From NCBI GenBank assembly GCA_021786845.1, contig JAJYMO010000049.1, positions 1-64,000 of the forward strand: a stretch of 64,000 nt of DNA. Direction: 5' to 3'. The DNA comes from Pseudomonadota bacterium. GTDB taxonomy: Bacteria; Pseudomonadota; Gammaproteobacteria; Burkholderiales; Sulfuriferulaceae. The notes under the pieces are model-generated. The model was not told where the DNA came from and did not search any database. It worked only from the letters and a program-made list of their open reading frames with translations. This document shows, piece after piece, positions 25,884 to 32,987 of this stretch. Positions within the stretch are counted from its first letter, which is position 1. Each line of letters opens with the position of its first letter. A program made the translations under genes and the position numbers.

Positions 25884-26372
25884 TTACATCGACGGATCAA
25901 CTACATAATGTTTCCGCGCTTGTAAAAATGCCACTTCGGCAAAACCTGAAGGCACAATATCGCTTTCCTTGACCCCATAAAGGGTATGGTAATCAATACC
26001 CAATTCCATTAATGAATTATTGCACACCATAAATTGTACGCCGTGACTGCGTAAATTATCGAGTTGGGCCTTTTGATCATCAGTAGGCGTTTTCAGCCAG
26101 GCCAACCCCTTGGCATACATCACCACTTTAACATTGAGCTTGCCGCCCCAAGTGTCCATGGCCTTGAGTGAATTAGCGATATTGCGCAGCTTCATGGGCA
26201 ACACCATTTCATTCGTTAAAGCCACCACCACATTCATTTCGCCGTATTGATCATGGGTAATGTGGGGCTTGACATAAGCCGAAGCCGGTGCGGCGTCATC
26301 GGCAAAAACAGGTGCGCTGAAGGCCAATGCGCTGGCGAACAAAGCCAGCGTTAATTTATGTTGAAGTTTCAT
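25884..26372 (-). CDS. Exported DsrE-family protein
   Basis: Signal peptide MKLQHKLTLALFASALAFSAPVFADDA; DsrE-like core KVVMYAKGLAWL...GVQFMVCNNSLMELGI...IVPSGFAEVAFLQARKHYVV. Confidence 0.85.
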   Translation of the reverse strand: MKLQHKLTLALFASALAFSAPVFADDAAPASAYVKPHITHDQYGEMNVVVALTNEMVLPMKLRNIANSLKAMDTWGGKLNVKVVMYAKGLAWLKTPTDDQKAQLDNLRSHGVQFMVCNNSLMELGIDYHTLYGVKESDIVPSGFAEVAFLQARKHYVVDPSM

Positions 26373-28275: not shown

Positions 28276-28596
28276 TCAGCTGATGGTGGTTTGCAACGTG
28301 TCGCTGTCACCGAGATTGTCTGACCAATGGATAGCGAGCGCGTCACCTGCCTTGGCACCTTTTACCCGAAAATCAAAGAAAGGGTTTTTAGAAATCGCAA
28401 TACCCAAATCTGCGTCGAGCACCGTTTTACCATTTAGGGTAACGGTGAGTTGTTTGATAAAGTGCGCAGGAATCACTTCGCCGGTCTTGGCATTTTTGAT
28501 TAAACCAGTGTCCATAGGGTGCATGATCAATATTTTAATGTCCGCCACGCCACCGGTACTCATCTTTGCCCGCGCTTTAATGCTGTGTTGTGCCAT
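28276..28596 (-). CDS. soxZ: Thiosulfate oxidation carrier complex protein SoxZ
   Basis: 106 aa; KILIMHPMDTGLIKNAKTGEVIPAHFIKQLTVTLNGKTVLDADLGIAISKNPFFDFRVKGAKAGD. Confidence 0.95.
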   Translation of the reverse strand: MAQHSIKARAKMSTGGVADIKILIMHPMDTGLIKNAKTGEVIPAHFIKQLTVTLNGKTVLDADLGIAISKNPFFDFRVKGAKAGDALAIHWSDNLGDSDTLQTTIS

Positions 28597-29740: not shown

Positions 29741-29947
29741 TAAAAATTCCTTAAATAGGTTTAAATTTTTCCACTTTAGCTGCGAAATTACCCCAGACTG
29801 AAAACTGGCGGGACAAATGTTGCAAAATTTGGGTTAAAATTTCACATCAGTTTTCATACTGGTTCGAATACAAGCCAATGACCAACCATGCTGGTTGTAC
29901 ACGAATTTGGATGTATGCACTTCGATAAAATAACTATGCCACGGTAG

Positions 29948-29977
29948 TAAGACGGCACAGATGGAAGTTTATTCCAA
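29948..29977 (-). promoter_or_regulatory. Putative ECF-type promoter P2 driving dsrE-soxY-soxZ-soxB-dsrE
   Basis: Minus strand TTGGAATAAACTTCCATCTGTGCCGTCTTA: -35-like GGAATA (29970-29975), 15-nt spacer, -10-like CGTCTTA (29948-29954). Confidence 0.6.
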
Positions 29978-30010
29978 ATTTTTAACTTGCATCACGCCAA
30001 ATAAAATATA

Positions 30011-30040
30011 TGGAATAAGAATACAGCATGCCACGTCTTA
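30011..30040 (+). promoter_or_regulatory. Putative ECF-type promoter P1 driving the sigma/anti-sigma operon
   Basis: TGGAATAAGAATACAGCATGCCACGTCTTA: -35-like GGAATA (30012-30017), 16-nt spacer, -10-like CGTCTTA (30034-30040); same motif as P2 on the opposite strand. Confidence 0.62.
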
Positions 30041-30083: not shown

Positions 30084-30644
30084 ATGACCATTTTTTCTCT
30101 GTTTTGCCGGGCGAACGCTTTTGATCAGCAGTTTGCGCAAATCCGTCCGAGGCTCTATCGAACGGCCTATTCATGGTGCCACAATGCAGCGATTGCGGAT
30201 GATTTGGTGCAAGAGGCGCTGACCAAGGGCATCAAGTCTATCGCACAACTGCATGACCCGGCACAATTCAACAGCTGGCTGTTCAGAATCATGACCAATT
30301 GCTGGCGCGACTATTTCCGGCAACACCGGGAAATGGATGATGTGGATGACATGGACGATTGCCTGTGCGTCAACGACATCACACCGGAAGACGAACATGC
30401 TCAATCGCAAATCATCTACCGCGTGCGTGAAGCCGTGATGAAACTGCCAATGGGGCAACGTCAAGTGGTCACGCTGGTCGACCTGGAAGAATTTTCTTAT
30501 GCCGAAGTGGCAGCGATACTGGCGATACCCGTGGGTACAGTGATGAGCCGCCTGTGCCGCGCACGCCAGTCGTTACAAATTTTACTTAAAGCACATGCGC
30601 CGCAAATGGCTGCAAAAAACAACCTCTTGAGGAGGGTCAAGTAA
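30084..30644 (+). CDS. ECF-family RNA polymerase sigma factor
   Basis: Sigma region 2 (LYRTAYSWCHNAAIADDLVQEALTKGIKSI...FNSWLFRIMTNCWRDYFRQ) and region 4 (VREAVMKLPMGQRQVVTLVDLEEFSYAEVAAILAIPVGTVMSRLCRARQSL). Confidence 0.93.
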   Translation: MTIFSLFCRANAFDQQFAQIRPRLYRTAYSWCHNAAIADDLVQEALTKGIKSIAQLHDPAQFNSWLFRIMTNCWRDYFRQHREMDDVDDMDDCLCVNDITPEDEHAQSQIIYRVREAVMKLPMGQRQVVTLVDLEEFSYAEVAAILAIPVGTVMSRLCRARQSLQILLKAHAPQMAAKNNLLRRVK

Positions 30645-31378
30645 TGGAAAATAAAAATGTTTCAGACGAACTGCTCAATGCTTTTCTCGACAATGAATTG
30701 GCAGAGACTGACCGCAGCAAGCTTTTTCAAGCCTTTGAACAGGATGAAACGCTGAAAACACGGGCATGTGAATTGCACAATTTGAAAGAATTAATGCAGC
30801 ATGCTTATCCGGTAGGCCCGGCGGAGGAGCCTCGTCCGGTGAAACACCGACACATTTGGCGCCGCATGTATTTACAGGGCCTTGCCGCGTCGTTGATGCT
30901 GTTGCTGTTTGGTGGATCATCAGGATGGATACTTTCAGCCGACGCCTCAGCAAAATCTTACCCCAAAGTCACGCACCTGATTAACACCATACAAAACGAC
31001 AACTTTGCGGAAGAACCCGACAAAATCATTGTTCAAGTCAGCAATTCCAATCCGGTCAGGTTGAAAGCAGCGCTTGATGAATCAGAAAACCTGCTCGAAA
31101 CATATCGAGTCACCAAACGACCACTTCAAATGGAGATTATCGCCAATGGCGGGGGACTGGATTTATTGCGCGCAGGCGTTTCTCCGTACGAAAAACGTCT
31201 GGCGACCATGCGGGCGAAATACCAGAATTTGCATTTCTACGCGTGCAATCTGACGATCAATTCCCTGAAAAAGAATGGTGTGAAAGTACGGCTTTTGCCT
31301 GGTACCGGAATTGCCACCTCGGCATTTGACGAAATCAATAATCGTGTACGTCAAGGCTGGGACTATGTACGCGTTTAA
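30644..31378 (+). CDS. Putative transmembrane anti-sigma factor with C-terminal DsrE-like domain
   Basis: Overlaps the sigma stop by 1 nt. N-terminal LLNAFLDNELAETDRSKLFQAFEQDETLKTRACELHNLKELM; TM LQGLAASLMLLLFGGSSGWIL; C-terminal DsrE-like LKAALDESENLLETY...QMEIIANGGGLDLL...LHFYACNLTINSLKKNGVKVRLLPGTG...IATSAFDEINNRVRQGWDYVRV. Confidence 0.75.
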   Translation: MENKNVSDELLNAFLDNELAETDRSKLFQAFEQDETLKTRACELHNLKELMQHAYPVGPAEEPRPVKHRHIWRRMYLQGLAASLMLLLFGGSSGWILSADASAKSYPKVTHLINTIQNDNFAEEPDKIIVQVSNSNPVRLKAALDESENLLETYRVTKRPLQMEIIANGGGLDLLRAGVSPYEKRLATMRAKYQNLHFYACNLTINSLKKNGVKVRLLPGTGIATSAFDEINNRVRQGWDYVRV

Positions 31379-31553: not shown

Positions 31554-32987
31554 ATGAAAAAAATAACTGCGATGAAGCTTGCGCTAGGTATGGGCGTAGG
31601 CTTGGGTTTGTGTGTGTGTCAACCGGCCAACGCTGCCAACTGGTTTAATATCCAAACCATTTCTTTACCTGAATGGGGTTCGGGACAATTCATCGGTTTT
31701 CTTCAACCACTTTATACAGATATTGCGGCCAGTCCGGTGGTCGTGAGTGGCTATCCCCATGCCCCGGCAAATGGTCAAACCGCCCACTTTAACCAGGTGG
31801 CGCCCACTTTTGATTCCAGCTCACAACTCTATATGCAACGTGCGCGGTTTTTTATACGCGGCAGCATCGGCGGCAACTCCGATATCTCTTATTATGTGGG
31901 TGCAGAAGCGGGTCAAAACGGCTATGACTACTCCTTTGGCCGGTATGCGCCCAGAATCATCGATGCGAACATGGTGTTCAGCCATTACATCCCGGGTGTA
32001 CGTTTGGAAATCGGTAACATCCGCGCGCCTGGGCCTGAGGGTGCAATGGAAGGTTTTATGGATTTTAATTTCCTCGATGCGTTTGGCTCAGGCTTGCAAC
32101 AGCTGATGCAACCGACATTCTATAACAATGGAATGAGATATAGCCAGGCCCCCGGAGGCGGGGGTCCGAATGGCGGCTACACAGTACCCGGTGGTGATGT
32201 GTCCGGCAACAATGGCTTCCGTTATCCCGGCATTCAGGCAGAAGACTGGTTTATGGTTGCACCAAAAGTTGAAGTGGCCTACGGTGCGATGCTGGCGGAT
32301 TATGGCCGGTTGCTGGATTCTGGCACTTCAAATGGACCCATTGTTGCGGGACGACTTCAGGCCTCTTATTTGCTCGGCAGTGAGCAGGGCCGTTTTTTCC
32401 GCAACGACCTGACAGGCTTCATTTGGGCACAAGCCGCGCATCCTGAAATAGGCGTGATGCCCGGACAACTCAGCCCATCTTCCAGCAACATGACCCGGGA
32501 TGGCTTTGGTATGACCTACCGCAAAGGCTATATGGAACGCGGTGGCCTTGACGTGAAAGCGGAATACTTCGAAGGCAGCGGAAACATTGCAGCGCCAGCG
32601 GTATTCAATCAAGCGCCCGGGATGGCGGCAGCACCTCAGTTGTATGACGAAGTCGTGTATGCGGGCAGCAACAATACGGCCAATGGTTATGATGTGTCAG
32701 CCGGGTATTTCTTGACCAAGCGCATCGAAGCAGTCCTGCGTTATGATTACTATGATCGTTTGCCCAACAATGCCGCAGCAGAACGCATGTTTAAAGACAC
32801 TTCATTAGCGCTCGAATACCATGTCACACCGTTGACCAGGGTGGTGGTGGATTATATTGACCGCTCCATTACCATTCCCAACCCCGGTGCAGTGGGTCCG
32901 GCAGGAAGTTTGGCCTTGACGCAGGCCTCGGCGATTGTCAACTCCATCGGTAATCAAATGGACGTTTGGGCGGTGTATGCGTTTTAA
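31554..32987 (+). CDS. Outer-membrane porin
   Basis: Signal peptide MKKITAMKLALGMGVGLGLCVCQPANA; beta-barrel-like alternation, phosphate-selective-porin-like (MQRARFFIRGSIGGNSDISYYVGAEAGQNG); ends with aromatic residue (VWAVYAF). Confidence 0.8.
   Translation: MKKITAMKLALGMGVGLGLCVCQPANAANWFNIQTISLPEWGSGQFIGFLQPLYTDIAASPVVVSGYPHAPANGQTAHFNQVAPTFDSSSQLYMQRARFFIRGSIGGNSDISYYVGAEAGQNGYDYSFGRYAPRIIDANMVFSHYIPGVRLEIGNIRAPGPEGAMEGFMDFNFLDAFGSGLQQLMQPTFYNNGMRYSQAPGGGGPNGGYTVPGGDVSGNNGFRYPGIQAEDWFMVAPKVEVAYGAMLADYGRLLDSGTSNGPIVAGRLQASYLLGSEQGRFFRNDLTGFIWAQAAHPEIGVMPGQLSPSSSNMTRDGFGMTYRKGYMERGGLDVKAEYFEGSGNIAAPAVFNQAPGMAAAPQLYDEVVYAGSNNTANGYDVSAGYFLTKRIEAVLRYDYYDRLPNNAAAERMFKDTSLALEYHVTPLTRVVVDYIDRSITIPNPGAVGPAGSLALTQASAIVNSIGNQMDVWAVYAF

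Follow-up and report, generated by a model that had tools for sequence, protein, structure and literature searches.

The analyzed sequence, hereafter the window, is a 64,000 nt stretch (positions 1 to 64,000 of contig JAJYMO010000049.1, assembly GCA_021786845.1) from a member of the Sulfuriferulaceae. It contains two divergent gene clusters with a pair of predicted promoters between them, in the following order:

25884..26372, minus strand: dsrE2, exported DsrE-family protein (signal peptide; conserved Cys); PF02635
26461..28179, minus strand: soxB, thiosulfohydrolase; TIGR04486, 879 bits, above cut-off
28276..28596, minus strand: soxZ, carrier partner; TIGR04490 above cut-off, PF08770
28696..29151, minus strand: soxY, thiosulfate-oxidation carrier protein; TIGR04488 above cut-off, PF13501
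29213..29740, minus strand: dsrE1, exported DsrE-like protein (signal peptide; cysteine in VEFCGNS); homology
29948..29976, minus strand: predicted divergent ECF-type promoter of dsrE1-soxY-soxZ-soxB-dsrE2; motif, found in 46/61 and 15/29 loci
30011..30040, plus strand: predicted ECF-type promoter of the sigma/anti-sigma operon; motif, kept in 60/61 and 24/29 orthologous loci
30084..30644, plus strand: ECF sigma factor, 186 aa; PF04542 and PF08281, TIGR02937 above cut-off
30644..31378, plus strand: predicted membrane anti-sigma factor, 244 aa; ATG overlapping the sigma stop codon, family alignment, profiles and fold
31554..32987, plus strand: porin-like outer-membrane protein; ca. 31 % identical to a Sulfuricella-type porin that matches PF07396

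An earlier note, made from the sequence alone, had described a sigma factor gene facing a dsrE-soxYZB-dsrE cluster, and this gene content was borne out by Pfam and NCBIfam, with the first dsrE assigned by homology alone. The product of dsrE1 had no Pfam match by itself, showing 29–37 % homology to DsrE-like proteins and a conserved cysteine at the equivalent place. The sigma gene codes for a short protein with regions 2 and 4, as expected for the ECF (group IV) branch of the sigma-70 family, and soxY, soxZ and soxB of the Sox thiosulfate-oxidation operon were identified by NCBIfam cut-offs. Gene soxA is absent from the cluster, and its best match in the genome (37 bits) is below the SoxA cut-off. 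Since DsrA was above its cut-off in the same genome and SoxA was not, the host genome fits a Sox-plus-Dsr sulfur oxidizer; judging by the sigma protein, several relatives are records of Sulfuricella, Thiobacillus, Sulfurisoma, Sulfurimicrobium and Sulfuriferula. The porin-like gene, without a Pfam match of its own, is probably the third gene of the sigma operon or another member of the regulon, and in a relative lacking the sigma gene (locus L136) the porin gene is situated directly behind the same promoter.

The plus-strand site, TGGAATAA-N15-CGTCTTA (30011–30040), corresponds to GGAATA-N16-CGTC and its last base is 43 nt 5′ of the sigma ATG (30084); the minus-strand site, TGGAATAA-N14-CGTCTTA (29948–29976), corresponds to GGAATA-N15-CGTC and its last base is 207 nt 5′ of the dsrE1 ATG (29740). 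Re-checking the window sequence showed that the coordinates, strands and spacers of both sites, as well as the 43-nt distance to the sigma start, had been noted exactly. Each site thus combines a GGAA-type −35 with a CGTC-type −10 element at a distance within the 15–17 nt of ECF promoters, the plus-strand site lying 5′ of the sigma gene itself, and both sequence and conservation agree with an ECF promoter. The promoter pattern had 0 matches in dinucleotide-preserving shuffles of the window, and GGAATA-N14..17-CGTCTTA occurs only twice in the whole 2.19-Mb genome, both times at this locus (reversed pattern, 0 matches). The genome-wide scan proposed in the earlier note for defining a regulon therefore singled out the strict pair as unique, but a wider regulon was not evident: the looser GGAATA-N14..16-CGTC was found at nine places vs. 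eight for the reversed control, and six of the seven places outside the divergon are inside ORFs. Because the loose motif is at background and the extra matches are mostly internal to ORFs, we limit the claim in this genome to the divergon. A loose motif is situated 194 nt 5′ of an RND-transporter gene (L080, C48:14191–14216 of the same genome), and a similar motif lies 134 nt 5′ of an RND-transporter gene in genome G010 (L107), possibly reflecting an extra target or chance. The dsrE1 leader (29741–29947) is partially conserved in the two nearest relatives; at 207 nt it is longer than in most relatives (typically 50–110 nt), and another promoter could for this reason lie inside it.

Conservation of the promoters was examined in a first set (set A) of sigma orthologs from whole genomes and GTDB contigs, comprising 61 loci with enough upstream sequence, in which we scanned up to 200 nt 5′ of the sigma gene on the sense strand and up to 300 nt on the opposite strand. 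The motif GGAATA-N15/16-CGTC was present in the sense orientation in 60 of these 61 loci, with a divergent copy in 46, although the loci include close relatives and are not all independent. For a held-out set, 369 genomes of the class were searched with the anti-sigma alignment and the best 29 new, more distant loci were scanned, yielding a sense site in 24 and a divergent site in 15. Reversed and complemented control patterns gave 0 matches in both sets, and the expectation from random windows of the same loci was ca. 0.15–0.21 in all. The footprinting in relatives that the earlier note had called for thus strongly favored its promoters, and over both sets together 84 of 90 loci had a sense site no more than 200 nt from the ECF sigma gene. 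The divergent site is missing in about a quarter of the loci, some of which carry sox genes inside the sigma operon. At the genome level, GGAATAW-N15-CGTCW was found at 74 places in 23 genomes with a sigma ortholog vs. 16 in 23 without it. Likewise, among 100 relatives SoxB was above cut-off in all 23 genomes with a sigma ortholog vs. 35 of the 77 without (Fisher p 4e-7, uncorrected for kinship). Two loci (L157 and L166) contain two ecf-anti-sigma pairs in tandem, with GGAATA-N16-CGTC before each. In Thiobacillus-type loci (L054–L056 and L068) the −10 element ends ca. 9 nt 5′ of the sigma ATG, and this points either to transcripts without a leader or to a wrongly assigned start codon.

Several exceptions to the pattern were informative. 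Of the five held-out loci in which no sense CGTC site was present, four (L151, L164, L165 and L171) have GGAATA-N15/16-CATC instead, and in three of them, L151, L164 and L165, which carry two family labels, the change from CGTC to CATC affects both divergent promoters, as predicted if a single sigma factor reads both. We sought a single sigma residue behind this switch, and none was found. In the close relative G005, one locus (L136; G005:C19, 8593–8915) retains only a remnant of the sigma gene, with in-frame stops, and has lost the anti-sigma gene. Its remaining genes are highly similar to those of the window (dsrE1, 90 %; dsrE2, 89 %; porin, 87 % identity), and both divergent promoters are intact before dsrE and the porin gene, with the N15 spacing of the minus-strand copy unchanged. 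Another contig of this genome contains an intact ecf-anti-soxYZB operon with the same promoter. The simplest reading is that the sigma-less locus is controlled in trans by the second copy. The only ortholog of the first set with no site 5′ of the sigma gene is that of genome G006 (L122); a site is located ca. 335 nt 5′ of a porin gene on a different contig of G006 (L135).

Gene order at these loci is variable, yet the site stays before sox or secreted-DsrE genes. In five genomes (G002, G004, G005, G010 and G015) ecf, the anti-sigma gene and soxYZB form a single operon, whereas the divergent genes are soxYZ-soxB in G097, soxYZ-soxA-soxB in L042 and yeeE-soxYZ-soxB in G083. Most other loci have a divergent gene for a secreted DsrE protein, with or without a porin gene. 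Judging from gene order, the divergent target in this family is typically the secreted DsrE protein, in many cases with a porin gene behind it, and sox genes take this position in a subset that includes the window; the earlier note had overlooked the more usual target. Putative regulon members also include a YeeE-type sulfur transporter, under the promoter in L022/L137, and, in L068 and L111, a thioredoxin of the DsbH type. In G007 (L095) and G059 (L111), sites outside the sigma locus precede genes for a secreted DsrE protein and a thioredoxin-like protein, the latter resembling the DsbH-type gene 3′ of the anti-sigma gene in Thiobacillus-type loci. Loci L103 and L104 have an extra site ca. 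1 kb 5′ of ecf, before a gene for a predicted exported protein of ca. 250 aa.

The product of 30644..31378 comprises a putative RseA/MucA-like N-terminal domain, one transmembrane helix (residues ca. 72–97) and a DsrE-like domain containing Cys201. Its ATG is situated at the sigma stop codon (30644), and this overlap, together with the single transmembrane helix, is what is expected of a membrane anti-sigma factor. The protein had no Pfam or NCBIfam match by itself, and no named family of either database fits its full length; the DsrE domain became visible only with a family-level profile, fold comparison and hhalign. Among 62 orthologs, Pfam recognized DsrE in 15 and zf-HC2 in 11. A zinc-binding anti-sigma type was considered and discarded, as its HxxxCxxC motif was not seen in the window protein. 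Profile matches in PDB were 1l1s, 2pd2, 6in7 and 8z6g, with MTH1491 at E 2.4e-14 and ST0148 also matching. AlphaFold2 modeled the DsrE-like part with high confidence, and the N-terminal part as three helices; Foldseek retrieved MTH1491 (1l1s) with a target-normalized TM-score of 0.88, and also YchN and DsrEFH. Alignment by hhalign with the secreted DsrE proteins had a probability of 99 % and superimposed the invariant cysteines, and Cys201 also aligned with the cysteine of MTH1491. This residue is invariant in 62/62 aligned anti-sigma sequences and in 29/29 held-out proteins. The C-terminal domain hence has both the fold and the conserved cysteine of the DsrE/DsrF family (PF02635; MTH1491, YchN, DsrEFH), although here a transmembrane helix links it to a putative anti-sigma domain and, because one hydrophobic helix separates it from the N-terminal domain, it is predicted to be extracytoplasmic, in the periplasm. 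The N-terminal part gave weak profile matches to MucA/RseA domains (6in7 and 8z6g; E 0.02–0.03). As in anti-sigma factors of the RseA/MucA type, the gene overlaps that of the sigma factor and encodes a single transmembrane helix, together with a putative N-terminal anti-sigma domain and a predicted extracytoplasmic sensor, but the sensor part here is DsrE-like and carries the invariant cysteine. The earlier note, supported as to promoters and targets, had overlooked this DsrE-domain anti-sigma factor.

The closest described system is that of the sulfite-responsive ECF sigma factors RpoE4 of Sinorhizobium meliloti and SigE of Starkeya novella, which are discussed as ECF26 (PMC6527743, PMC3511301); the likeness is one of promoter consensus and gene context. 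In both cases an ECF sigma/anti-sigma pair adjoins genes for the oxidation of sulfur oxyanions and the sigma factor controls, or here would control, the neighboring operon, and the consensus reported for the known system is −35 GGAAT and −10 CGTC, with 1-bp spacer differences (PMC6527743). Nevertheless, the targets of RpoE4 and SigE in the passages drawn on here are sulfite oxidases (sorT, sorAB) instead of soxYZB and secreted DsrE genes, and those passages mention neither a divergent promoter pair nor a DsrE-domain anti-sigma factor (PMC6527743, PMC3511301). A linked sulfite-oxidase gene, as in the ECF26 systems, is not among the genes adjoining the sites in the window, which are sox, dsrE and porin genes. 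Control of sox genes by sulfur compounds is also known from the SoxR/SoxT1B signaling of Hyphomicrobium, in which the repressor SoxR acts in the cytoplasm and is supplied by a transporter in the membrane (PMC10451225, PMC11582611). A YeeE-like protein can be involved in both systems, but at the present locus there is a sigma/anti-sigma pair and the sensor domain lies outside the cytoplasm. Full-text searches of open-access papers revealed neither an anti-sigma factor with a DsrE domain nor sox genes under the control of an ECF sigma factor.

Divergent, near-symmetric pairs of sites are common for operators in divergent regulator-target pairs, and the half-sites might accordingly bind a repressor or an activator, their likeness to ECF promoters being coincidental. 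This is hardly credible, because the two elements are directional, have a spacer of 15–16 nt, point at the gene start and, in 84 of 90 loci, lie close to an ECF sigma gene; furthermore, elements and spacing match the mapped −35 GGAAT and −10 CGTC of a sulfite-responsive sigma factor (PMC6527743). A repressor operator was rejected on the same grounds, orientation, spacing and linkage all fitting an ECF promoter. It is also improbable, if somewhat less so, that the sigma factor is autoregulated but the minus site is weak or silent, with sox genes driven mainly from another promoter. Compared with nearly all loci of set A, the minus site lacks one base in its spacer, 1-bp spacer differences could alter promoter strength (PMC6527743), and the leader exceeds that of most relatives. 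Against this, the two nearest relatives, one of which lacks a sigma gene at the locus, have precisely the same N15 spacing, divergent sites of unrelated families (L144, L147 and L149) show it again, and no sigma-70-type promoter scored above shuffles in the region.

A more serious contender, which we nonetheless consider unlikely, accepts the circuit and differs in the signal, which would be envelope or thiol stress (e.g., sulfite, polysulfide or disulfide) instead of sulfur availability. The DsrE domain would then be a structural or redox module, and the DsrE, porin and thioredoxin-like genes would serve detoxification. Consistent with this, sulfite acts as a stress signal for RpoE4 of S. meliloti and SigE of S. 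novella, whose promoter consensus, GGAAT/CGTC, is nearly identical (PMC6527743); putative regulon members include thiol-related genes, such as the DsbH-type thioredoxin, and many divergent operons consist of DsrE and porin genes only, without sox. However, soxYZ(A)B is directly under the promoter in the window and in several relatives, as is the YeeE-type transporter in L022/L137, and no sulfite-oxidase gene was recognized among the examined genes adjoining the sites.

We therefore favor the reading that the locus is a self-contained ECF sigma signaling unit for dissimilatory sulfur oxidation, to which we assign a probability of ca. 0.87 on the strength of comparative sequence data. Footprinting, linkage and the paired −10 changes support the proposal of an autoregulated ECF sigma factor that would also control the divergent sox/dsrE operon, and we infer with high confidence that the sigma factor transcribes from both promoters, including that of its own gene. 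In the proposed circuit, the ECF sigma factor (30084–30644) would recognize GGAATA-N15/16-CGTC and start transcription at both divergent promoters, its targets being its own operon (sigma, anti-sigma and probably porin) and dsrE1-soxYZB-dsrE2. Without signal, it would be held by the membrane anti-sigma factor (30644–31378), whose RseA/MucA-like N-terminal domain would face the cytoplasm. Periplasmic reduced sulfur (sulfane sulfur or thiosulfate) would change the DsrE domain, reaching Cys201 either directly, as a modification, or through the secreted DsrE/SoxYZ carriers of the same regulon, and the sigma factor would be freed through a conformational change or regulated proteolysis. That the anti-sigma factor holds the sigma factor until the DsrE domain responds to periplasmic reduced sulfur through Cys201 is proposed with moderate confidence; the nature and chemistry of the signal, like the mode of sigma release, have less support than the link between sigma factor and promoters. 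At about even odds, the system would represent a class of sulfur sensor not described before, in which the periplasmic DsrE domain of a transmembrane anti-sigma factor accepts sulfane sulfur at its invariant cysteine, either directly or by transfer from those secreted DsrE/SoxYZ carriers that are under its control, so that carrier loading would lead to sigma release and Sox/DsrE expression in beta- and gammaproteobacterial sulfur oxidizers.

The sensing of external reduced sulfur by sulfur oxidizers has been described as poorly understood, and the systems studied in that work are alphaproteobacterial repressors (PMC11582611). In chemolithotrophs of the beta- and gammaproteobacteria (Thiobacillus, Sulfuricella, Sulfuriferula, Sulfurisoma and relatives), the locus offers a concrete and testable answer, namely an ECF sigma factor that would activate its own gene from a defined promoter, paired with an anti-sigma factor in which a sulfur-carrier fold serves as building block. 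What would be new with respect to known ECF and anti-sigma systems is the sensor domain and the regulon, and the promoter motif provides a tool for regulon prediction in organisms known mostly from metagenomes. The data as a whole point to a putative ECF system that senses sulfur, regulates itself and governs Sox/DsrE genes in sulfur oxidizers of the beta- and gammaproteobacteria.
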